This document shows, piece by piece, positions 4,672 to 15,206 of a stretch of DNA of 64,000 nucleotides (positions are counted from its first letter, which is position 1; each line of letters begins with the position of its first letter). A program made the translations under genes and the position numbers. Source of the stretch: Flavobacterium piscisymbiosum (GTDB lineage: Bacteria > Bacteroidota > Bacteroidia > Flavobacteriales > Flavobacteriaceae); assembly GCF_020905295.1 (NCBI RefSeq), contig NZ_JAJJMM010000001.1, positions 2,232,001 to 2,296,000 of the forward strand. The letters are read 5' to 3'. Under the pieces are notes generated by a model. It saw only the letters and a program-made list of their open reading frames with translations. It was not told where the DNA came from and ran no database searches.

Positions 4672-6753
4672 ATGATGAGCAACTCAGAATTTGGAAGTAT
4701 TTCATTTGATTTACCAAAAAACCAATCAAATGTTATCAAAGTAATAGGTGTAGGTGGAGGTGGTAGTAATGCTATCAACCACATGTTTAAGCAAGGTATT
4801 AAAGGCGTTGATTTCATCGTTTGTAATACTGATTCACAGGCACTACAGAACAGTTCGGTACCGAACAAGATTCAGTTAGGTATGAACTTAACAGAAGGTC
4901 TTGGAGCAGGAGCAAATCCTGATGTAGGACAGCAATCTGCTATAGAAAGTATCGCTGATATCGAAAAAATGTTAGACCGTGGTACTAAGATGGTATTTAT
5001 TACCGCTGGTATGGGTGGTGGTACAGGTACTGGTGCAGCTCCGGTAATTGCACAATTGGCCAAAGAAAGAGAAATTCTTACGGTTGGTATCGTTACTATT
5101 CCTTTTCAGTTTGAAGGAAAAGTGCGTCAGGAGCAAGCGCTTTTAGGAATCGAAAAATTGCGTAAGCAAGTCGATTCGCTAATTGTAATTAATAATAATA
5201 AATTAAGAGAAGTATACGGAAATCTTGGTTTTAAAGCAGGATTCTCGAAAGCGGATGAAGTTTTGGCAACAGCCTCAAGAGGTATTGCCGAAGTAATTAC
5301 GCACCACTATACTCAAAATATCGATTTACGTGATGCTAAAACTGTTTTATCAAACAGCGGAACTGCTATCATGGGATCTTCTGTTGCAGCGGGTGAGAAC
5401 AGAGCAAAAGAAGCTATTGTTTCAGCATTAGATTCTCCGTTGTTAAACGATAACAAAATTACAGGAGCCAAAAACGTATTGTTGCTTATCGTTTCTGGAT
5501 CAAACGAAATTACATTGGATGAGATTGGAGAAATCAATGATCACATTCAGGTAGAAGCGGGTCACAATGCTAATATTATCATGGGAGTTGGTGAAGACGA
5601 AACTCTTGGTGATGCTATTGCCGTGACTATTATTGCAACAGGTTTTGATGTTGAACAACAAAATGAAATTGTAAACACAGAACCTAAAAAAATAATTCAT
5701 ACGCTGGAAGATGAGCAAAGAAGTGTTCATAATTTATCGAATAAATCAGTTACTTCTTTTGATGTAAATGCAGAAACACCTACTGCAAAATCTGAAGAGA
5801 AAATTGTTTTTGATTTAATGGATGACGAAGATACCGAAATGCCGTTTACAGCTACGCATGTTGCTCCAGTTGAAGTTGCTCCAATTGAAGTTGCACCAGT
5901 TGCTGTTACACCGTCAATGAATGTTACCAGCAATCCATCAACGAATGTTGCAGGGAATAATCCATCGATGAATAAGGAAGAATTAGTGGTGATGTCTGAG
6001 TTTATCAAAAACCTTGACGTAACTTTCGAAATTGTTTCGCCTATTACAGATATTGATTTTACTATTACGACTCCGGAAACTCAGACTTTCCAGAATATAC
6101 AACCAGTTCAGCAAGTTCAACAAAGAACTTTTGAAAGAGAAGAGCAAACGACTTTCTCATTCGATTTGCCTCTTTTTAGATCAGAGCCAGAAGTTAAAAA
6201 AGAACCGGTTGCAGAACAGGAAAATAAAGTTTTATTCGAATTATCGAATGAGACCCGTAATATAAAAGTAAATGATCCGGTACAATTTGTTCCGGTAACA
6301 GAACTTTCAGATAAAGGAATCATCAAATATTCATTAGAAGAATATATGGAGGTTGAGAATGAGTTAGTGGCATCAAAACCTGTTGATAAAGTAGTAGAAG
6401 ATGTAATTCCTGCGGAATTGAATATCACTATGAAACAAAAAACTGATTTTGCAAGTGAAGCTCATTTTACAACAACTTCAGAGGTTTCTCCGATGGAATT
6501 GACAATTGAGGAAACTTTACGTTTGAGAGCTGAAGAAAGAAGAAAGAAACTAAAAGAATTTAATTATAAATTCCATAATAATGTTTCCAGAATTGATGAA
6601 CTTGAAAAAGAGCCTGCTTACAAAAGATTAGGTATCGATTTATCAAATAATCAATCAAATAATAACAATTCGAGAATATCAGTTGGAACAGATAGTAACA
6701 ACGATTTGCAGTTGCGTTCAAACAATTCATTTTTGCACGATAACGTAGATTAA
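4672..6753 (+). CDS. ftsZ: Cell division protein FtsZ with a long C-terminal extension
   Basis: FtsZ is the tubulin-like GTPase that polymerises into the division ring. Two ATGs stand in tandem at 4672 and 4675. The N-terminal globular part (about residues 20-330) has GVGGGGSNAI (27-36), the tubulin signature GGGTGTG (115-121) and a T7-loop region reading GFSKADEVL. The protein is 693 residues, against about 380-400 for E. coli or B. subtilis FtsZ. The extra length is a low-complexity, Val-, Pro- and Glu-rich linker (about 335-630) that includes short VAPIEVAPV-type repeats. A conserved-looking tail follows (EPAYKRLGIDL near residue 636, then an Asn-rich end). Long linkers are typical of Bacteroidota FtsZ. 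A strong terminator follows directly. Confidence 0.97.
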   Translation: MMSNSEFGSISFDLPKNQSNVIKVIGVGGGGSNAINHMFKQGIKGVDFIVCNTDSQALQNSSVPNKIQLGMNLTEGLGAGANPDVGQQSAIESIADIEKMLDRGTKMVFITAGMGGGTGTGAAPVIAQLAKEREILTVGIVTIPFQFEGKVRQEQALLGIEKLRKQVDSLIVINNNKLREVYGNLGFKAGFSKADEVLATASRGIAEVITHHYTQNIDLRDAKTVLSNSGTAIMGSSVAAGENRAKEAIVSALDSPLLNDNKITGAKNVLLLIVSGSNEITLDEIGEINDHIQVEAGHNANIIMGVGEDETLGDAIAVTIIATGFDVEQQNEIVNTEPKKIIHTLEDEQRSVHNLSNKSVTSFDVNAETPTAKSEEKIVFDLMDDEDTEMPFTATHVAPVEVAPIEVAPVAVTPSMNVTSNPSTNVAGNNPSMNKEELVVMSEFIKNLDVTFEIVSPITDIDFTITTPETQTFQNIQPVQQVQQRTFEREEQTTFSFDLPLFRSEPEVKKEPVAEQENKVLFELSNETRNIKVNDPVQFVPVTELSDKGIIKYSLEEYMEVENELVASKPVDKVVEDVIPAELNITMKQKTDFASEAHFTTTSEVSPMELTIEETLRLRAEERRKKLKEFNYKFHNNVSRIDELEKEPAYKRLGIDLSNNQSNNNNSRISVGTDSNNDLQLRSNNSFLHDNVD

Positions 6754-6777
6754 TTTTACAATCCTAATTATAAAGAT

Positions 6778-6817
6778 AGCCCGAAAATTGGATTTAATTT
6801 TCGGGTTATTTTTTTTA
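6778..6817 (+). terminator. Rho-independent terminator after ftsZ
   Basis: A 12-bp stem (AGCCCGAAAATT with AATTTTCGGGTT) encloses a six-base loop and is followed by a run of T residues. It starts 25 bp after the ftsZ stop and closes the division cluster. Confidence 0.85.
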
Positions 6818-6823
6818 TCTTCG
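6816..6823 (+). promoter_or_regulatory. Possible Bacteroidota-type -7 element upstream of yqeY
   Basis: TATCTTCG is one base from the TAnnTTTG consensus of the Bacteroidota housekeeping sigma factor. No convincing TTG at the usual -33 spacing is seen. If used, the transcript would have a leader of about 130 bases containing a TTAACTTTTAAAGTTAA palindrome (6852-6868), a TTCCGG/CCGGAA hairpin (6882-6899) and an AGGTAGTACCT palindrome shortly before the gene. Confidence 0.3.
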
Positions 6824-6957
6824 CACAGAATTTAAAATTTGACTTCTGTACTTAACTTTTAAAGTTAAATTTGTTGTCAGTTTCCGGTGAAGTCCGGAAT
6901 ACACTTTCAAAAAGTCATATCAATTATAGGTAGTACCTATTTAAATAAAAAAATAAG

Positions 6958-7407
6958 ATGAGTTTACAAACATTAATCATGGATGAGATTAAAACCGCCA
7001 TGAGAGCAAAAGATACTGTAGCATTAGAAGCATTAAGAGCCATTAAATCTGAAATGTTATTAGCTGCAACTTCATCAGGTTCTAAAGAGGAATTAACAGA
7101 AGACGATGAAGTTAAATTACTTCAGAGATTAGTTAAAACCCGTAAAGAAAGTGCTCGTATTTTTACAGAGCAAAATCGTCCTGATTTAGCAGAGCCGGAA
7201 TTGGCTCAGGTTGCTGTAATCGAGAAATTTTTACCTGCACAATTAAGTGAGGAAGAAGTAGAAGCTGTAGTTGCAAAAATTATAGCTGAAACCGGAGCTT
7301 CTGGAATTGCATCTATGGGAAAAGTTATGGGATTAGCTTCTGCTCAATTAGGCGGAACTGCTGAAGGAAAAACTATTTCTGCAATCGTTAAGAAATTATT
7401 AGTATAA
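6958..7407 (+). CDS. GatB/YqeY domain protein
   Basis: A 149-residue protein of the stand-alone YqeY family, related to the C-terminal tail domain of the amidotransferase GatB, which helps hold tRNA during transamidation. The exact role of free-standing YqeY proteins is not settled. The sequence shows an N-terminal helical part (MDEIKTAMRAKDTVALEALR) and a C-terminal part with the family pattern GASGIASMGKVMG followed by GTAEGKTISAIVK. The size is normal for the family. It is monocistronic: the ftsZ terminator lies before it and the tRNA-Arg gene starts 79 bp after it. Confidence 0.92.
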   Translation: MSLQTLIMDEIKTAMRAKDTVALEALRAIKSEMLLAATSSGSKEELTEDDEVKLLQRLVKTRKESARIFTEQNRPDLAEPELAQVAVIEKFLPAQLSEEEVEAVVAKIIAETGASGIASMGKVMGLASAQLGGTAEGKTISAIVKKLLV

Positions 7408-7486
7408 AAATATTAGATTTTAGAGTTCAGATTTTAGATTTCATTCAATAATCTAAAATCTAAACTCAACAATCTGCAATCAAAAA

Positions 7487-7560
7487 GACCGCGTAGTTCA
7501 ACTGGATAGAATATCAGATTTCGGCTCTGAGGGTTGGGGGTTCGAACCCCTCCGCGGTCA
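7487..7560 (+). tRNA. tRNA-Arg, anticodon TCG
   Basis: A 74-base cloverleaf can be folded by hand. The acceptor stem is GACCGCG with CGCGGTC, the D stem GTTC/GAAT, and the anticodon stem TCAGA/TCTGA around the loop TTTCGGC. Anticodon TCG reads CGA and other CGN arginine codons. The T arm is GGGGG-TTCGAAC-CCCTC and the discriminator is A. CCA is not encoded. A terminator follows. The cassette array begins about 230 bp downstream. Confidence 0.97.
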
Positions 7561-7574
7561 CTCTAAATTTTAAA

Positions 7575-7606
7575 AGCCTGAGGATGCAGATTCTCAGGCT
7601 TTTTTT
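7575..7606 (+). terminator. Terminator after tRNA-Arg
   Basis: AGCCTGAG and CTCAGGCT form a perfect 8-bp stem around a 10-base loop, followed by seven T residues. It lies 14 bp after the tRNA. From here to 7788 I see no gene or recognisable site. Confidence 0.9.
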
Positions 7607-7788
7607 GTGGTTCGAAAATTTTTAAGATTTTCTTCTAGTTTTAAAAACACCTATGTTTAAAGGGGATTTTGGTTCGAATACAATCATGGATTTGTTAAGC
7701 TCTACGATTCTCTTTCAGGTTCTAAAGTTTAGGTTTAGTTCCTAACTTGAACTCCATGTTAAGTTCGCACATCTAGTTTTTAGCTGAC

Positions 7789-7919
7789 CCATAACCGTCT
7801 AATGTATGAGCGGTAACGGATTTATTTGCACTAAATTCTCGGAAAGCAAGATACTTAATTAATGCAATAGCGGTTCAAGTTTGCACTTAAACCGCTATTG
7901 CTTATACATATTGTTGTGC
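7789..7919 (-). repeat. attC-like element 3, at the 3' end of the AraC/VOC cassette
   Basis: Read on the minus strand, this 131-nt element starts with an R''-like box GCACAAC (7913-7919) and ends with an R'-like GTTATGG (7789-7795). The arms ATGTATAAGCaataGCGGT and ACCGCTCATACAT can pair with a few unpaired bases, as in integron attC sites. A perfect 12-bp hairpin (GCAATAGCGGTT, 7864-7875 with 7890-7901) forms the centre. Size and position match the two other elements at 9344 and 10506. The R'' box is complementary to the start of its own cassette at 9350. No gene lies between this element and the tRNA terminator. Confidence 0.6.
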
Positions 7920-7931
7920 GTTCGTTCTTTT

Positions 7932-8426
7932 TTAATTCGGTGAATGAAGTCCTATTTTATTTCCCTCCGAATCGTGGAAAATGGCAAAAAATCCCCTTTC
8001 GTCAGCGTGGGGTGTTTTAGGAATAATTATTTTTCCACCATTCCTTTCTATTTTATCAAGAATTGTTTGTAGATTATCTCCACCATTCAGATAAATAGTA
8101 ACTCCGCTAGCAGAAGGTTCGTAACCTTCTCCTTTCATAATCACTCCTGTAACCATTTGGTCTTGGTATGGGAATAAGCCCATTTCTATTCCTGGGAAAT
8201 CTAATTTTTCAATTTCTACCCCTAAAATTTCTTTGTAAAAGTTGATGGCTCGTGAAATGTCCGTTGCAGGAATTTCAAAAATTGAGATGTAACTGTTCAT
8301 TTTCTTTACGCTTTTTGTGTTTATTTCTTTAGTTTGGCTTTGTTCGGGAGTTAAATAATCTTTGTTTTTACAAGACACAATACCGAATGTTAGGGCAATA
8401 ATTGCGATAAAAAAATTTTTTTTCAT
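7932..8426 (-). CDS. VOC (glyoxalase/bleomycin-resistance fold) protein, possibly a lipoprotein
   Basis: The C-terminal 120 residues (about 44-164) are a single VOC domain: an opening beta strand, ATDISRAINFYKEILG, and an ending IFHDSEGNKIGLHSPN typical of the PhnB/glyoxalase superfamily. Metal-binding or substrate residues cannot be assigned with confidence. As called, the first 19 residues form a lipoprotein signal peptide ending FGIVSC, so the protein would be membrane-anchored. An internal ATG at 8300 (Met43) would give an ordinary cytoplasmic VOC protein. The gene follows the AraC gene by 73 bp on the same strand and shares its cassette, so it is a likely target of that regulator. Confidence 0.8.
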   Translation of the reverse strand: MKKNFFIAIIALTFGIVSCKNKDYLTPEQSQTKEINTKSVKKMNSYISIFEIPATDISRAINFYKEILGVEIEKLDFPGIEMGLFPYQDQMVTGVIMKGEGYEPSASGVTIYLNGGDNLQTILDKIERNGGKIIIPKTPHADERGFFAIFHDSEGNKIGLHSPN

Positions 8427-8499
8427 TTCTAGTTTGTTATTGACGGAACAAAACTAATAGCTGAAAGTCTATTAAAATTGTAAAAATGCGACACCTGAA

Positions 8500-9315
8500 T
8501 TATTTATAAAAAAGTGCAGAAAGATCCAAACTTTCACCAGCGAGAAACTCTTTGGGATTTATTCCTGTAAACTCTCTAAAGTCTTTAATAAAGTGTGCTT
8601 GGTCAAAATATTTACTATTGTAGGCAATATCGGTCAGGTTTTCCGACTTTTGGTTGAGCAACATTTTTAAAGCTGTTTGTAGGCGAATTATCTTTCCCAA
8701 TTGTTTGGGACTAACTCCAATTTGCTTTCTGAAGTTTCTTTCGAGTTGTCTTCGTTTTGACAAGTCGTCTTTAAGAATTGAGTTTATTGAAGCACTTCCG
8801 TTTGTCGATAGAAGGGAATCAACTATGTTCTTTACTATTCTATTAATCGTTTTTTCATCATTAAGCCTTTCTAAAAGAAATTTTTCGATAATGCTTATCC
8901 GTTGTTCCGTATTTTCTGCTTTGATGATTTTTTGTTCCAAGTCATTTGCGTTTTCTGCACCAAAAAGTTGGTCTATAGATGTTTCTTTGTTTATTAAATT
9001 GTTCATTGATTCAGAAACAAAATTGGCAAACCCATAAGGATAAAATCGGATAGCAAATGTATTTACATAACCTATTGGCTCAATGTAAAAGGGCTCAATT
9101 GTTTGTCCAAGTACCATTGCACGAGGTTGAAGTATAAATTTATCTTCGGAAGTGTACCGTTTTATATTGTCTCCAAGAATAAAAGCCATTTCAATACAGC
9201 CGTCAGGAACTATTCGTTGTTTTTGTGGTTCAGATTGTTTAGGCACTTCCAAAGTCCAATAGCAATTTATAAGCGATTTTAAATTTGAATGAGGTTCGTA
9301 TGTTTTATAATCCAT
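8500..9315 (-). CDS. AraC-family transcriptional regulator in the cassette
   Basis: A 271-residue regulator. The N-terminal part (about 1-145, starting MDYKTYEPHSNLKSLINCYW) matches the DUF6597-type sensor domain found ahead of AraC helix-turn-helix domains. The last 110 residues contain the two helix-turn-helix motifs, ending with the signature YFDQAHFIKDFREFTGINPKEF. The ligand is unknown. It is the first gene of a two-gene cassette bounded by attC-like elements and probably controls the VOC gene behind it. Being a regulator inside a cassette, it may have been acquired together with its target. Confidence 0.9.
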   Translation of the reverse strand: MDYKTYEPHSNLKSLINCYWTLEVPKQSEPQKQRIVPDGCIEMAFILGDNIKRYTSEDKFILQPRAMVLGQTIEPFYIEPIGYVNTFAIRFYPYGFANFVSESMNNLINKETSIDQLFGAENANDLEQKIIKAENTEQRISIIEKFLLERLNDEKTINRIVKNIVDSLLSTNGSASINSILKDDLSKRRQLERNFRKQIGVSPKQLGKIIRLQTALKMLLNQKSENLTDIAYNSKYFDQAHFIKDFREFTGINPKEFLAGESLDLSALFYK

Positions 9316-9343
9316 TTATCGTTCGTTGCTTTTTCAGAATGAC

Positions 9344-9476
9344 GCACAACGTTCTCGTGCTACAAGCAGTTTGGGATTAAATTAAGCCCTATTTTCGGAT
9401 TTGCCAAGTCAATCCAAATACAAAACCATTTTTCCATTAAGCCCATTGCCTAAATCCGTTGTAGTAGCTGTTACAG
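9344..9476 (-). repeat. attC-like element 2, between the 305-aa cassette and the AraC/VOC cassette
   Basis: On the minus strand this 133-nt element opens with CTGTAAC (R''-like, 9470-9476) and closes with GTTGTGC (R'-like, 9344-9350). Inside it, AGCTACTACAACGGATTT and GGCTTAATGGAAA are shared nearly base for base with element 1 at 10506. The inner arms pair imperfectly (GCTACTACAA against GCTACAAGC). The opening CTTCCTGTAAC is complementary to the start of the same cassette at 10512, whereas the closing box belongs to the next cassette. That is exactly how cassette joints form in integron arrays. Confidence 0.65.
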
Positions 9477-9557
9477 GAAGCCTTTTTATCATTCAGTTGT
9501 TGTTTTAAAGTCGCATAGCACGAACTTCTTCTATTAACAAATTTAAAAATAATCTTT

Positions 9558-10475
9558 TTAGAAGCAATAGGTTCCTCCTTTGACCTCTTTAATCTTTATT
9601 TTTCCACCTTTAATTTCATCTTTGTCAATTATAAAAACTTTTTTCGTGTTTGAATTTATTAATTGTTCCAAATCACATTGGGTAAATTTTTGTAAATAGT
9701 CAGAATGCAATATTTTATCAGAATTGGTTTTTAAAAATGATTTCTTTTTATAAAATGTGTTTGTTGGCTCAATAGAACTAAAGCGATTTAAATTAATAAA
9801 TTGACCAGATGAACAATTAAAATTGAAGAAATAATTTTCTTGCCGTATATTCTTTAATTTATTTATATCAGCAATATATTGTACATTTTTCCCTCTTTTG
9901 ATGAATAAATAAATTGTATCTAAAGATTTCACTCTTTCAAATTCTTTATCATAAAAATATCTTGTCAAATTTAAATAACTATTTAAAAATGTTTTTCTGT
10001 TTTCAGCGAAAGGAAATTTATCTTCCATATAAGTATTAGGAGAGTAACTATAAAGTTTTAAAGTTTTATTACTTTTATAAACAGAAACTTCAAATTCACC
10101 CCCATCCATAACAATTGTTCTATTTCCTTCTTTATCAATTTCATTGGTTATTTTTGTTGGGTCAATTGAGACTAATGTATCTATTAATTTCTTGCAATTT
10201 ATTGCATCAATATTATCCAACTTTATTATGTTCATTATTGTGTGTTTACATATTGTATAACAATTTATTTCATTATTTTTCAAAGAGATATATTTGCTAT
10301 AGCCCAAACATATAATTTGAACTTCATTATCTTCTTTCAATATACCTCTAATTTTATCTCCATTTTTTTCATAATCAAAATGTTCGTATTTTGAAAAGAT
10401 AAAGGAGGAATCAACGTTATCTTGTGAATAAACAGTCGAAAATAATAATAAAATGATGACTAAGATATAATTCAT
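9558..10475 (-). CDS. Unknown exported protein (cassette gene)
   Basis: A 305-residue product that I do not recognise. It has a typical signal peptide (MNYILVIILLLFSTVYSQ, predicted cleavage near residue 18) and no further membrane segment, so it should be periplasmic or outer-membrane associated. The rest is rich in Lys, Asn, Ile and Asp, with no catalytic motif I can name. It is very AT-rich even for this genome. It is the only gene between attC-like elements at 9344 and 10506 and points the same way as the other cassette genes. No promoter of its own is obvious. Confidence 0.75.
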   Translation of the reverse strand: MNYILVIILLLFSTVYSQDNVDSSFIFSKYEHFDYEKNGDKIRGILKEDNEVQIICLGYSKYISLKNNEINCYTICKHTIMNIIKLDNIDAINCKKLIDTLVSIDPTKITNEIDKEGNRTIVMDGGEFEVSVYKSNKTLKLYSYSPNTYMEDKFPFAENRKTFLNSYLNLTRYFYDKEFERVKSLDTIYLFIKRGKNVQYIADINKLKNIRQENYFFNFNCSSGQFINLNRFSSIEPTNTFYKKKSFLKTNSDKILHSDYLQKFTQCDLEQLINSNTKKVFIIDKDEIKGGKIKIKEVKGGTYCF

Positions 10476-10505
10476 TATTATTCAGTTAATTTTGAGTAAG
10501 GTTTC

Positions 10506-10640
10506 CTGTAACGTTCTGGCGCTTGGCGAGGTTGGGGAATAAAGATGTAGCATTTTTTTCGGTTAAATACAAATTTACCAAATACAAGACCAACTTTCCA
10601 TTAAGCCAATTGCCCAAATCCGTTGTAGTAGCTGTTATGC
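10506..10640 (-). repeat. attC-like element 1, between the 323-aa-ORF cassette and the 305-aa cassette
   Basis: On the minus strand this 135-nt element opens with GCATAAC (R''-like, 10634-10640) and closes with GTTACAG (R'-like, 10506-10512). The internal stretch AACAGCTACTACAACGGATT followed by GGCAAT and GGCTTAATGGAAA is shared with element 2. Arms pair only imperfectly (CGGATTTGGGC against CGAGGTTGGGG). Its R'' box matches the complement of the start of the cassette at 11621 (8 of 10 bases), not its own R' box, as expected when two different cassettes are joined. Confidence 0.65.
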
Positions 10641-10646
10641 GACGTT

Positions 10647-11576
10647 TCACTTAGTAAGAAGATATTCCTCAAAGTTGTTTGTTACATCGTAATAATCATA
10701 ACCAAATTTTCCTACCCAACAACTTATAACACCACCTTTAATTTTTTCAGAATTTTTCAATATCTCCGCAATACGTTGATTATCTTTTCTATCTAGATGA
10801 ATCTTCTGTTTCTTTTCTATATGCTTCAACGTGTTTGCGATCAATAATCGTGCTGTTGGACTTGGTGAATAAATTAATTTTTTAAGAGCGTCAATATCAT
10901 TTAATACAATAAGATATCTAATTAGATCAAATGTTGGATAGCCAATTCCATTTAGAATATAAAAAGGCTGTTGAAGTGGACTACCGCTCAAAACATCAGA
11001 GAAGAAATCAAAAACATCTTTTCTTTTAGTATTGTTGTCCTCTATTTCCAATGAAAGTGCGCCAAATTTTGATTCGTATTCTTTCAAGTTATCTTCTATG
11101 ATTTTGTCATAGACGAGATTATTGTATTTACACTTTAATGGAAATTCAACCACCGTGGAAAGATAAGTATAAGCTATTTGTCCGGGACAGTCTATTGTGA
11201 ATCGTATTTTAATAATCTTATCTTCAAAATATAATGCACTTACATGAACCGAACCATATCCTCCGTAAAATTCATGATCTGTAGACTTCAGATTATATCC
11301 GCAATCATAAGTTATACTTCTACAGTTTCCAATTGGTTTAATAAAACCAGGGAATATTTTTTCTATGTCCGCTATAGAATTAGATCGTTTGTTAAGTTGA
11401 TTTAATTTTTTGACGTTTTCCATATCATTATTTACCCAATCTAATTGTATCGGTTTTTCCACATTCCATTTCCCATTATTACAAGCTAGAACATTTTGCA
11501 TCGTGATTGTATCCGATTTGGTTTGGGAAAATCCAGTATTTAAAAACACCAATAATAAAAATGTCAAGTATTTCAT
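10647..11576 (-). CDS. Unknown exported protein (cassette gene)
   Basis: I chose the ATG at 11576 because it places a clean signal peptide at the N-terminus (MKYLTFLLLVFLNTGFSQ). The longer frame from 11618 would start inside the cassette boundary. The 309-residue product has no motif I recognise. The C-terminal third has helical pairs containing IYSPSPTARLLIANTLKHIE that could be HEAT-like, but this is weak. The two cysteines in the sequence around ITYDCGY and RFTIDCPG may pair after export. It is the first cassette of the array and ends 7 bp before attC-like element 1. Confidence 0.75.
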   Translation of the reverse strand: MKYLTFLLLVFLNTGFSQTKSDTITMQNVLACNNGKWNVEKPIQLDWVNNDMENVKKLNQLNKRSNSIADIEKIFPGFIKPIGNCRSITYDCGYNLKSTDHEFYGGYGSVHVSALYFEDKIIKIRFTIDCPGQIAYTYLSTVVEFPLKCKYNNLVYDKIIEDNLKEYESKFGALSLEIEDNNTKRKDVFDFFSDVLSGSPLQQPFYILNGIGYPTFDLIRYLIVLNDIDALKKLIYSPSPTARLLIANTLKHIEKKQKIHLDRKDNQRIAEILKNSEKIKGGVISCWVGKFGYDYYDVTNNFEEYLLTK

Positions 11577-12030
11577 AATTCTTAGATAATCGATTACGGT
11601 TTTCCCGAAATGACGCACAACTTGTATATATGTCTGACTACGTCCGACTTATCTATCCTAAATTGGGTCGATATATCCGACAAATGTCAATGTTTATTTG
11701 TTTTCAAAAATAGGATTTTTATTTCATAAATAATCAAACTGACTTTTTATATATTGAATACTTTTTACACTAACTTGAGGATAAGTAATTGTGGTATTAC
11801 TACTTAGACGAATTGACAGAAACGCGACTTAACTAATCATGATATTAAATTCAAATAGCAAAATTAGATATCATTTAAAATCTTTAAATCTTCCAATAAA
11901 AGGTTCGAATTATGTACCGTCAAGGTCACAAAACAAAAAACCACTCAAAGCGAGTGGTTTTTTGTTTTGTATTAAATTAGTTTATGAGTATAGCCTTAAC
12001 TAGATAAATTTTTACCAGGAAAATATCATT
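11577..12030 (-). other. Non-coding region at the promoter-side end of the cassette array
   Basis: GACGCACAAC (11612-11621, minus strand GTTGTGCGTC) is the start of the first cassette. Upstream of it I looked for a matching R''-like box about 130 nt away and found none, so this edge may be a degenerate attC, an attI-like site or the end of the array. The stretch 11640-11900 is AT-rich, with no gene and no integrase remnant that I can see. A terminator at 11934 closes the gene on the other side. Confidence 0.5.
11934..11964 (-). terminator. Terminator after the urease-side AraC gene
   Basis: CCACTC and GAGTGG form a stem extended by A and T runs on both sides, so it can work in both directions. 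It lies 67 bp beyond the stop of the minus-strand AraC gene and ends the urea locus. Confidence 0.8.
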
Positions 12031-12903
12031 TTATTTAAAAAACTGTAGCCTATATTCTTTAGGGGTGATTCCTGTAATTTTTTTGAAAAGTTGCGTAAAA
12101 TGTGAAGCTGTGTGAAAATTAAGCTGATAAGCAATTTCAGCAATATCTTTACTGGATTGAAGAAGCGCCTTGCTATAATTGATATCCATTTCGTTAATCC
12201 ACTGTTTTGGTGACTTTTGAGTTACATTTTTTACACATTTATTAAGGTAATTTTCTGTAACAGATAGTTTATCGGCATAAAATGTTACTCTTTTTTCATC
12301 TCTGTGATATTTGAACAAGATATCCCTGAACTGAAGAGACAAATCCATAGGACGAGTAGCTGATTTATGATGACTATCAGAATCGGTACTTAATATTTTA
12401 ACCAAAATAAGATGAAGCATAGTAATGATTATCTCATTTAAATTCAATTCATTAAGCCACAACTCCTGCTCCATAATAGTAAGCAGTTGTTTAATCGTTC
12501 CGTAAGTAAGGTTATCCAAATTTAAGAAAGGAGGCATAAAAAAAATGCTGGTTTTATGTTTGGGTAATTCCTGTTCAGATACAATATTGTTCTCATAGGC
12601 TAAGAAAAAACCTTCGGCATCATCAGATAATTCTATTGTCGCTGTAATTGTTCCTTGTTTGATAAAAATAACACCTCCTTTTTCTACATTATATTCTTTA
12701 TTCTCCAGATACTGTTTAATATGTCCGTTGGTAATAAACAGAACAAAATTAAAGGTGGTACGGTACGGAACTACAGGCATAAGAATACCTTTTAGATAAT
12801 CTTCAAGCCTGTAAAGCTGTATATCTGCATTATTAGAAAGTATTTTTTCTGTAATGTTAGGAAGGAAAAGTTTTTTATATTGAAAATTAGAAAGTGTTTC
12901 CAT
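12031..12903 (-). CDS. AraC-family transcriptional regulator at the end of the urea locus
   Basis: A 290-residue protein with an N-terminal cupin-like ligand domain (about 15-175, including EKGGVIFIKQGTITA) and a C-terminal AraC helix-turn-helix domain whose second helix reads LNFHTASHFTQLFKKITGITPKEY. The effector is unknown. It starts 48 bp after the TonB-dependent receptor gene on the same strand, so it is probably co-transcribed with the receptor and may control it or the whole urea locus. Neither autoregulation nor a binding site can be shown from the sequence. Confidence 0.88.
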   Translation of the reverse strand: METLSNFQYKKLFLPNITEKILSNNADIQLYRLEDYLKGILMPVVPYRTTFNFVLFITNGHIKQYLENKEYNVEKGGVIFIKQGTITATIELSDDAEGFFLAYENNIVSEQELPKHKTSIFFMPPFLNLDNLTYGTIKQLLTIMEQELWLNELNLNEIIITMLHLILVKILSTDSDSHHKSATRPMDLSLQFRDILFKYHRDEKRVTFYADKLSVTENYLNKCVKNVTQKSPKQWINEMDINYSKALLQSSKDIAEIAYQLNFHTASHFTQLFKKITGITPKEYRLQFFK

Positions 12904-12950
12904 ATTAATTATCCTATTAAAGATCGTGCAAATTTAATAATGAATATCAT

Positions 12951-15206
12951 TTAAAATTTATAAAATATTCCCATTTTTATCCCAAAAGGATTTCCAGGAG
13001 TATAGGTAATATCAGTAATTGGTGCCGCTTCATTTTTCAATTGAGTTTCTGTAGCAAATTGAGCTTCATTCCATTTTACATCGAATAAGTTATTGATTTG
13101 AAAATTAGCGCCCCATTTTGCACGGTTGTAGGAAAGTATCAAATCATTTACAAGGTAAGGTTTTGTTTTGAGACTATTATCCTCAACTGCAGGTCTTTCA
13201 CCTAGATAGCGATACTGTAATCCTATAGAAAAGCCTTTCATGAAATCCCAATTTAAAGATCCGGTACTCGTAATTATTGGTGCTAACGGAATATAATCTT
13301 CTCCTTTTGGTTCCTCCATTAATCGGGCATGAGAATAATTAACATCAGCATTTAAATATAGATTTGGTAATGGCTGGTAACGAATACCTAAATCAAAACC
13401 ATAGCGTTTTGATTTACCCGACGGTTCCACAACAGCATCATCACCTACATAAACAAACTCCTGTTGTAGAAATAAATACCATACTGTTGGTGTAATAATC
13501 AATGATTTTAAAGGATGAAGTCTTGTTCCGAAATCAGCTCCTAGAGAATATGGTAACGTGTTACGTCCATTTTGAGGAATTACAACCCTCATATCATTAG
13601 AATGAAATCCCATACCAGTTTTTAATAACCATACAACTTTGTCACTGGAAGCATAAGATAAATTAAGCTTAGGACTCAGTCTGGTTGCTTCTGATGATTG
13701 TCCCGATGGCAATTGCTCCTGATCCAGTAAATCATGCATGTTGAAAATAAAATGATCCAGCCTTAACGCTGGAGCAATAGTCCATTTTCCGGTTTTCCAT
13801 ATCAATTCTGAGTAAGCATGCAAATTGGTTTCTATGCCGGTAACATCCATCTTTTTATCCAACAATAAATCTCTGTGATAAACATGATTGAGCTGCAAAG
13901 TTTGAATATCGTCATTTCGGAATCCAATTCCGGATATCAATTCAAAAGAACTATTAGGAAGGATGAAATTTTTGACATGTTTAAATTCACCGCCATAAAT
14001 ATTTCTGCCATCTTTTTGTTGAATTTCATCTCCGTGAATAGGATCATTTAAGAAAAATGTAAAATCAGAATACAGATTAAAATTATACTTAGAGTACCAG
14101 GCCATCGCTTCAATATGCTCTGATGGAGAAATGATATGTTTAAAATTCATCTGAACATTGCTGCGAGAAGTGCTTCCTCCTTCGGTAGGATCAATGCTTT
14201 CCCAACGATCAATAATCCCTTCATTAATGGCGCGTTCCGGATTTTGTCCTGAAGCATTCCAGGAAGAATTAAAAGTAGAAAATTGGATATTGAAATAATC
14301 ATTATCAGTTATCCACTGGTTGTATTTTCCAAAGATATTAACTCTGTTGAAATTTTGTTTTACATCAAAAGGTCCGTCGGTGTAATTGTATTCTGTTGCT
14401 AAATAGAAATTTTTCTTGTTGTCGGGATCGTTTATGATATTGAACATTCCCAGAATTCTTTTTGTATTAAAAGAACCTGCTTCGAGTTTAATCATACTGT
14501 TTTTTAAAGCTCCATAAGTTTTAAAATCTACATAACCCGCAGTATTAAAATCTCCTCTGTCAGCATAATAGGCTCCTTTTCCAAAATCGATATTATTGAT
14601 GGTTTCAGGAATCACAAAATGCAGATCGGAGTATCCCTGACCATGACCATGAGATACTATATTTACAGGCATTCCGTCTACATTCACACTAACGTCCGTT
14701 CCGTGATCTGCATCAAAACCTCTTAGAAAAATTTGTTCTGCTTTTCCACCGCCGGCGTGTTGAGCAATAAACAAACCAGGAACTTTGCGCAATAAATCCT
14801 GAGCTGAGTTTACCGGAAATTTATTAAGATCAACCTTTGTGATATCTGAAAGAAATGAAGTGTGATTAATAATTATTTCAGAAATTTCAATAGGCTTGCG
14901 CTGAAGAAAAATGACTTTGTTTTCGTACTCTGTAGTGCTATTAACAGCCAATTTTTGCTGATCATATCCCTGATGACTAATTACAAGTGTATCCGGAAAG
15001 GATTGAAAGTGCAACTTGAATGAACCATCTGGTTCTGAATGGGTATGTGTGTTTCCGTGATTGTATTCTATCAAGACATTCCCTATTGGGAATTTGCTGT
15101 CTGTATCTTTAAGGAAAGTTTGCATTTCACTTTCTTTCTTCTGTGCTACAGACGCTACACTTATCATTAAGAGAAGGAAAACTATTGTATTTTGAATTCT
15201 TGTCAT
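12951..15206 (-). CDS. TonB-dependent outer-membrane receptor linked to urease
   Basis: A 751-residue receptor that should import a scarce ligand across the outer membrane using TonB energy. In order: a signal peptide (about 1-21), a carboxypeptidase-regulatory-like beta-sandwich domain (about 35-115), a plug domain (about 120-235) with GGGKAEQIFLRGFDADHG, and a beta barrel ending in the C-terminal Phe of GIFYKF. The N-terminal domain has a His-rich patch (NHGNTHTHSEPDG) and the plug has SHGHGQGYSDLHF. With urease, a nickel enzyme, encoded upstream, a nickel or nickel-metallophore ligand is the natural guess, but the HGHGQGY motif also occurs in receptors of other specificity. Confidence 0.9.
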   Translation of the reverse strand: MTRIQNTIVFLLLMISVASVAQKKESEMQTFLKDTDSKFPIGNVLIEYNHGNTHTHSEPDGSFKLHFQSFPDTLVISHQGYDQQKLAVNSTTEYENKVIFLQRKPIEISEIIINHTSFLSDITKVDLNKFPVNSAQDLLRKVPGLFIAQHAGGGKAEQIFLRGFDADHGTDVSVNVDGMPVNIVSHGHGQGYSDLHFVIPETINNIDFGKGAYYADRGDFNTAGYVDFKTYGALKNSMIKLEAGSFNTKRILGMFNIINDPDNKKNFYLATEYNYTDGPFDVKQNFNRVNIFGKYNQWITDNDYFNIQFSTFNSSWNASGQNPERAINEGIIDRWESIDPTEGGSTSRSNVQMNFKHIISPSEHIEAMAWYSKYNFNLYSDFTFFLNDPIHGDEIQQKDGRNIYGGEFKHVKNFILPNSSFELISGIGFRNDDIQTLQLNHVYHRDLLLDKKMDVTGIETNLHAYSELIWKTGKWTIAPALRLDHFIFNMHDLLDQEQLPSGQSSEATRLSPKLNLSYASSDKVVWLLKTGMGFHSNDMRVVIPQNGRNTLPYSLGADFGTRLHPLKSLIITPTVWYLFLQQEFVYVGDDAVVEPSGKSKRYGFDLGIRYQPLPNLYLNADVNYSHARLMEEPKGEDYIPLAPIITSTGSLNWDFMKGFSIGLQYRYLGERPAVEDNSLKTKPYLVNDLILSYNRAKWGANFQINNLFDVKWNEAQFATETQLKNEAAPITDITYTPGNPFGIKMGIFYKF

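Follow-up and report, generated by a model that had tools for sequence, protein, structure and literature searches.

The window, a 64,000-nucleotide stretch of the Flavobacterium piscisymbiosum genome (contig NZ_JAJJMM010000001.1, positions 2,232,001 to 2,296,000), carries beside a tRNA-Arg gene a short gene-cassette array that is most probably a decayed integron of a Bacteroidota type, in which an integrase gene once preceded a promoter, an attI site and a cassette array on the minus strand (probability about 0.87). This reading draws on comparative sequence evidence: the anatomy of the locus, the pairing of cassette ends, covariation within the attC-like sites, copies of whole cassettes with exact boundaries, and different cassettes at the same chromosomal site in relatives. 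The initial annotation had described an integron-like cassette array without an integrase, that is, a cluster of attC sites lacking integron-integrases (CALIN). The array is borne out by complementary cassette ends, a covarying hairpin, the exact-boundary copies and the exchanged cassettes, and the window genome indeed has no integrase of the matching type. That annotation overlooked an integrase fossil, promoter-like boxes and an attI-like site, so that the locus is better described as a decayed complete integron than as a bare cluster. Between 12031 and 7487, read on the minus strand, an AraC-type gene ends and is followed by a terminator-like hairpin, the integrase remnant, the promoter-like boxes, the attI-like site, the cassettes with their sites, and a tail:

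11727..11804, minus strand: apparent fossil of an integrase C-terminus, 26 codons, with an in-frame stop (11726-11724) directly after it
11705..11738, minus strand: promoter-like pair TTTG (11738-11735) and TATTTTTG (11712-11705), recognised by sequence and directed into the cassettes
11619..11696, minus strand: attI-like site, aligned with the post-integrase sites of relatives, insertion point G11621|TT
10512..11620, minus strand: cassette 1, with a 323-codon open reading frame (ORF) at 11618-10647
10504..10644, minus strand: attC-like site 1 (covariance model R1, 110.7 bits; site in the training set)
9350..10511, minus strand: cassette 2, with an ORF of 305 amino acids (aa) at 10475-9558
9342..9480, minus strand: attC-like site 2 (R1, 133.9 bits; site in the training set)
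7795..9349, minus strand: cassette 3, encoding an AraC-type regulator (9315-8500) and a VOC/glyoxalase-fold protein (8426-7932), both from Pfam
7787..7923, minus strand: attC-like site 3, with a different inner sequence (R1, 28.9 bits, E 0.0032; not in the training set)
7572..7794, minus strand: conserved array tail with a terminator-like hairpin, adjoining tRNA-Arg; similar DNA in relatives
7487..7561, plus strand: tRNA-Arg(tcg), flanking the array and encoded on the opposite strand to it

The attC-like sites belong to a widespread family. Sites 1 and 2 share 92% identity across 60 nt, and 72 of 150 same-genus genomes, counting that of the window, contain DNA resembling site 2 (E ≤ 1e-3); site 2 has no match in plasmid or phage collections at E 1e-5. 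The covariance model R1 is based on an alignment of thirty-seven related sites that includes window sites 1 and 2, and 53 loci totalling 917 kb were searched with it at E ≤ 0.01 (G numbers below denote same-genus genomes, G000 being that of the window). R1 recovered 252 sites in 47 of the 53 loci, and all 240 sites in the 35 multi-site loci share one strand within their locus. The model is tuned to one site family and misses others, as window site 3 exemplifies: it was not among the matches of the 917-kb search and was detected weakly, at the score listed above, in a smaller one. Site 3 has a strong inner hairpin (7864-7901) unlike sites 1 and 2, and the inner sequence therefore varies inside one array.

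In length the sites are comparable to attC, as they are in anatomy. In the alignment, columns 13-32 pair with 121-142 to give an 18-pair stem. Of its 665 cells 83.8% are paired, compared with 71.3 ± 1.0% in shuffled alignments; the first percentage is favoured by the stem having been drawn by hand on the same alignment. The covariation does not depend on that alone: the stem scored 0.364 against 0.165 ± 0.014 for shuffled alignments, none of 500 shuffles scored as high, and no slid structure came near. Among stem cells without a Watson-Crick pair, 46 are G-T on the bottom strand, 26 are G-T on the top strand and 62 are of other kinds; an A/C mismatch fixed within the stem in 34 of the 37 sites is likewise G-T on the bottom strand. 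Because G-T pairs are commoner on the bottom strand than on the top, this bias points to the bottom strand as the one that would fold, as in attC.

The ends of the cassettes provide a second view of these sites across many arrays. As the initial annotation proposed, the three elements lie on the minus strand at the positions it gave, each cassette starts with bases complementary to its own 3′ end (GTTACAGGAAACC/GGCTTCCTGTAAC, GTTGTGCGT/ACGCACAAC and GTTGTGCGTC/GTCGCATAAC), and the pairing of 12 of 13 positions in cassette 2 is correct, its lone mismatch following a family rule at position 11. The window joints read G11621|TT, G10512|TT, G9350|TT and G7795|TT. From the 252 modelled sites, 200 could be placed exactly; the other 52, whose ends the script failed to recognise, were dropped, leaving 146 cassettes 200-3000 nt long. 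A dropped site between two others causes two cassettes to be counted as one, which biases against the end-pairing result. The two ends of one cassette pair at 7.45 of 10 variable positions, compared with 3.75 for the two halves of one joint and 3.64 for shuffled partners (highest of 2000 shuffles, 4.02). This own-end pairing exceeds what chance would give. Position 11 matches in 2% of cassettes, and A stands opposite C in 112 of the 146. GTTR is present in all 146, as the site-placing script required. The longest cassette ORF lies on the array strand in 130 cassettes and on the other strand in 6; the remaining 10 have no ORF of 60 aa.

Folding agrees with the pairing. When cassettes are closed on themselves, the bottom strand of the attC-like site has a mean z of -4.6 (130 of 146 below -2), and at the joints as they stand in the arrays the mean is -2.48 (91 of 146 below -2). 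The closed bottom strand is more stable than the joint in 133 cassettes and more stable than the top strand in 126; closing window cassette 2 gives a bottom-strand fold with z -3.3. An imperfect bottom-strand hairpin, the check proposed in the initial annotation, is therefore present in both the 37-site alignment and the closed cassettes, with the two halves of a joint belonging to different cassettes and single joints folding weakly.

Copies of whole cassettes suggest that these units move. In the G045 array, cassettes of 715, 732 and 754 nt recur with 99.7-100% identity inside, and identity drops to 35-62% in the 60 nt beyond either end (six pairs); the boundaries of the copies are therefore those of the cassettes. 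A cassette of 1227 nt opens the array and has a 100% identical copy further inside. Doubled cassettes were also found in G109 (442 nt; flanks 23% and 48% identical) and in G119 (447 nt; left flank 83%, right 42%), and one G045 cassette has a 92% relative in G112 across 606 nt. The AraC/VOC cassette of the window has a 68% relative in the G045 array, which an integrase heads. When 150 nt of flank are offered, their alignment starts 3 nt before GTT, and their end boxes show a compensating change, from GTTGTGCGT/ACGCACAAC in the window to GTTATGCGT/ACGCATAAC in G045. These observations bear on the idea that the elements are dispersed repeats, MITE-like (miniature inverted-repeat transposable elements) or structured RNAs, which separate genes by chance without any cassette recombination. 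The elements are multi-copy and scattered through many genomes, and array heads and tails are repeated too. We nevertheless regard this as very improbable, given the co-orientation of 240 of 240 sites within 35 loci, their position behind an integrase and attI, the self-complementary cassette ends and the copying of whole cassettes with exact boundaries; moreover, an Rfam scan of 5000-14000 found the tRNA alone to pass its family cut-off.

In same-genus relatives, the arrays are headed by a tyrosine recombinase of 347 aa, encoded in the cassettes' direction directly upstream of attI and the array; one 20-kb stretch has as many as 23 modelled sites. It first came to notice through sub-threshold IntI matches that lay next to arrays and in the same orientation. 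A search with the G109 protein finds matches in 84 of 150 genus genomes at E ≤ 1e-40, with scores above 300 bits in 59; some copies are partial or contain stops. The window genome has no match at E 1e-40; four related recombinases in it all lack the N-terminal part. We relied on synteny as evidence for the association because, by presence/absence, sites and integrase are weakly linked in the genus and modestly in the class (numbers below). Among 20 loci fetched from the integrase search list, 19 contain R1 sites, the exception having just 1.1 kb of contig left; all 94 sites are on the integrase's strand and 93 lie downstream, with 2 of the 94 in the R1 training set and nearby elements in G005 and G007 known beforehand.

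The fossil in the window was matched by tblastn with the integrases of 12 relatives at 58-67% identity, scoring 27.7-30.0 bits for 11 of them and 21.9 for the twelfth; the best of 300 shuffles reached 25.0 bits, in a rough control that permutes base pairs in blocks of two. Its position and its stop codon match those of the whole gene in relatives. Remnants of the integrase tail are found in 10 of 13 heads at E ≤ 0.1, including those of the window, G054, G049 and G096; some have in-frame stops, and two are weaker than E 0.01.

Some observations concern the surroundings of these integrases. Draft contigs of G019, G035, G030, G143, G065, G098 and G032 stop about 2 kb or less from the integrase, as would happen if assemblies broke at repeated attC sites. 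Other tyrosine recombinases recur in or near the G139 and G045 arrays (L067:18432-19292 and L068:5361-6221; 328-aa copies in G045), as if an insertion element lay among the cassettes. A 312-aa tyrosine recombinase is present twice in the window genome, in equal-scoring copies separated by 3.9 kb (G000:C1:4284432-4285265 and 4288370-4289203).

Between integrase and cassettes lie the promoter-like boxes and attI. In 28 of 33 integrase loci a TAnnTT[TA]G box lies no more than 45 nt from where the integrase ends; the window pair was judged against the Bacteroidota promoter consensus. In relatives a conserved site ending TATAnACnAG|TT directly follows the integrase stop, beside the integrase and with insertion at G|TT as for an attI, and the window contains a homologous site. 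Of 14 related loci, most of them chosen for such a match, 12 have similar stretches, 13 in all. The 25 aligned attI sequences, that of the window included, contain two mutually exclusive hairpins whose words covary, paired at 0.749 and 0.753 against shuffled maxima of 0.520 and 0.507. The window pairs 4 of 7 and 4 of 6 positions in them, compared with means of 5.2 and 4.5. Situated beyond the promoter-like box, these hairpins are candidates for an integrase site or for a leader/attenuator. The attI words of G066 differ from those of G109, and the cassette that comes first after them is the same in both (77 nt of it can be seen in G066). At the other end, a tail of ~180 bp recurs at the 3′ end of arrays in relatives (window 7572-7790; L305-L318), with tRNA-Arg or tRNA-Leu(gag) in 8 of 11 tail loci within the 3.1-3.2 kb read; in L306 a tail is joined directly to the next head. 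The window genome has further attI-like heads with attC-like sites after them at G000:C1 ~76.5 kb, 2.345-2.347 Mb and 4.1195 Mb (L143, L144, L070), two of these in tandem.

The initial annotation had suggested comparing related strains for cassette gain or loss. Eight stretches of relatives were fetched, six of them with the FtsZ-YqeY neighbourhood. Beyond the tRNA-Arg, G054, G049, G006 and G096 have the tail, one or more R1 sites, and a head or part of one; G091 and G109 have no R1 site and no head at the same site, with a tail or terminator only. None of the window's four cassette ORFs is encoded in the six same-site relatives at E 1e-8. Four relatives have other cassettes at the same locus, which, with the exact-boundary copies, indicates gain, loss and shuffling of cassettes. 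Whether the locus still takes part is a separate matter, and we put at even odds the possibility that it is a true but dead integron, in which the same-site differences predate the decay of the integrase, or reflect homologous recombination between heads and tails, with no recombinase acting in trans. In favour of this, the window genome lacks an integrase of the type in question, heads and tails recur at several loci, three relatives have integrase remnants rather than genes at this site, and the attI hairpins of the window pair slightly below the means given above, a small difference. Against this, G054, G049 and G096 share the remnant head and the tail and have none of the window's cassette ORFs, which suggests exchange after the truncation.

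As to the cargo, the ORFs of cassettes 1 and 2 gave no match in a Pfam search, and none of the four cassette ORFs matched in a PADLOC search at E 0.01. The GTG start of the cassette 1 ORF falls inside the R′ box, and the ATG at 11576 is the likelier start. The DNA of the AraC gene in cassette 3 (9315-8476) matches, at 71% identity, DNA that carries no annotation in a record of Pseudoalteromonas piscicida (NZ_CP074588.1).

By the customary test, the array-head recombinase is not a standard IntI. No protein in the 150 genus genomes passes the integron-integrase cut-off of TIGR02249 (265 bits); four array-head proteins score 198-211 bits and ten IntI of other phyla 413-495. The initial annotation had proposed looking for an intI gene in relatives: a recombinase does head their arrays, and it remains below this cut-off. 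In those 7 of 11 rows where the motif was recognised, 61-62 residues separate KGxxDR from RHS, compared with 102-108 in 11 IntI proteins. Judged from its sequence, the array-head recombinase is one without the ~41-residue IntI insert, and the IntI-specific additional domain was not found in it. These results make it very improbable that the window is an ordinary IntI integron minus its integrase, the usual CALIN, with cassettes moved by a canonical IntI from elsewhere. The anatomy, site length and bottom-strand folding do match attC, and Bacteroidota have been placed among the phyla with integrons (PMC8618304), with a complete integron reported in Salinibacter ruber (PMC9024848); but the scores, the motif gap and the presence of the canonical core GTTRRRY in 8 of 146 cassettes speak against a canonical enzyme.

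In a quick tree whose deep branches are poorly settled, IntI form one clade (support 98) and the core Bacteroidota integrases, 15 rows, another (98), with a Spirochaetota relative outside the core clade; a joint IntI and core clade was not rejected by the approximately unbiased test (p 0.062). By sequence and fold, the catalytic part is nearest to XerA-type recombinases and to the Vibrio cholerae IntI (2a3v), and the XerA/archaeal-type Xer group (NF040815; PDB 5hxy, 4a8e) represents its nearest relatives. Two of four array-head integrases pass the NF040815 cut-off, the others falling short by 0.1 and 21 bits. That family is named tyrosine recombinase/integron integrase, and the group is therefore partly so labelled already. 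Xer proteins resolve chromosome dimers; here, by contrast, the gene heads a cassette array and its product carries an N-terminal extension. An origin inside the E. coli-type XerC/XerD proteins received no support from the tree, with its poorly settled deep branches.

The N-terminal extension may be a HARP domain. The HARP profile (PF07443, cut-off 25) scores 29.4 bits in the Spirochaetota relative L222 and 16.2 in L216, with no match in the other six of eight N-termini, those of Flavobacterium among them. A sequence search of the PDB with an N-terminal profile gave nothing at E < 0.09, and the HARP chain of SMARCAL1 was not among the 50 matches listed by a second search. We therefore offer only tentatively, as somewhat less than an even chance, the proposal that this is a second, separately derived kind of integron, in which a Xer/XerA-like recombinase acquired a HARP-type domain for structure-specific DNA binding instead of the IntI insert and thereby reads folded single-stranded attC. 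Such an integron would be common in Bacteroidia, present on plasmids and unseen by surveys based on the IntI domain.

The decayed-integron reading itself implies the following course of events. The locus would originally have run from an integrase gene through a promoter and attI into a cassette array, the last 26 integrase codons being what is still recognisable of the gene. Strand exchange by the recombinase, at or beside G|TT, would join attI or an attC to the folded bottom strand of a cassette attC. Such joining would leave self-complementary cassette ends and mismatched joint halves. The promoter would express the first cassettes, and the N-terminal part would take over recognition of the folded site.

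Several findings weigh against this reading. The window's integrase fossil is short. The bottom strands of its joints 1 and 2 fold no better than shuffles (z +0.57 and -0.45), and joint 3, with z -3.0 on the bottom strand, folds even more strongly on the top (z -3.8). The rarity of GTTRRRY extends to the partner core RYYYAAC, found in 11 of 146 cassettes. The array-head integrase of G139, like the Spirochaetota relative, falls outside the core clade of the quick tree. Co-occurrence in the genus is loose: 35 genomes have both integrase and elements, 24 the integrase only, 37 the elements only and 54 neither (p 0.03). Outside the genus, 4 of 13 site-integrase pairs lying within 60 kb on one contig, among the matches listed, are on opposite strands with the site upstream; the other nine are on the same strand with the site downstream.

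Across 295 genomes of the class, R1 matches 70 at E ≤ 1e-4 and an integrase profile 152 at E ≤ 1e-50, many of the integrase matches beginning at residue 60-75 and so lacking the N-terminal part. Co-occurrence is modest, with both in 51 genomes, sites alone in 19, integrase alone in 101 and neither in 124 (p 6e-5). Among 20 loci that are named or on plasmids, 11 contain R1 matches (E ≤ 0.05), 19 in total, all of them on the integrase's strand and downstream of it. Two Chryseobacterium plasmids (L297, NZ_CP041688.1; L298, NZ_CP094530.1) encode full-length integrases with 67-68% identity, both followed by the same kind of attI; one plasmid has three R1 sites and the other none. The three sites lie among genes annotated as Crp/Fnr, RidA and others. 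In Riemerella anatipestifer, a 2026 report describes homology-independent uptake of resistance genes involving a short 5′ and a 140-bp 3′ stretch that its authors liken to attC (PMC13148043). The attC-like 3′ end and the insertion without flanking homology resemble the present system; the difference is that no integrase is named for that case, and the comparison is by description only. The present system is a candidate explanation of that uptake, put forward as a lead.

Set beside known systems, the locus shares much with integrons of the class 1 and Vibrio cholerae type: an integrase beside attI, promoter-like boxes, co-directional cassettes that mostly hold one gene, bottom-strand folding of the attC-like sites, joints at G|TT, and duplication and exchange of cassettes. 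It differs in its integrase, which has no IntI-specific insert, carries an N-terminal extension and is transcribed in the cassettes' direction; in its sites, where GTTR is followed by variable bases and R arms of ~13 bp usually have an A/C mismatch at position 11; and in an attI with two mutually exclusive covarying hairpins. Transcription of the integrase toward attI, in the cassettes' direction, is shared with the Treponema chromosomal integron as described in PMC3607928, where the gene is, by contrast, called intI and the R′ word in one species is GTTAGGT. The window resembles a CALIN in having at least two attC-like sites (by model R1) and no integrase of the matching type in its genome; unlike a CALIN, it keeps an attI, promoter-like boxes and an integrase fossil, and the integrase lost was not a standard IntI.

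One large survey restricted itself to integrases that carry the IntI-specific domain (PMC2426708), which has elsewhere been called a defining characteristic (PMC9668308). In the accessible parts of the open-access literature, subscription papers and preprints not included, we found no description of an integron integrase without the IntI domain or of such arrays in Flavobacteriia. An integrase that fails the IntI-domain test is nevertheless found at the head of cassette arrays in many Bacteroidia and on two plasmids of Chryseobacterium, and surveys demanding that domain would miss this type of integron. If recombination proceeds as we infer, much gene-cassette traffic in Flavobacteria would have gone uncounted, and the need for the IntI domain in the recombination of folded attC sites would become directly testable.

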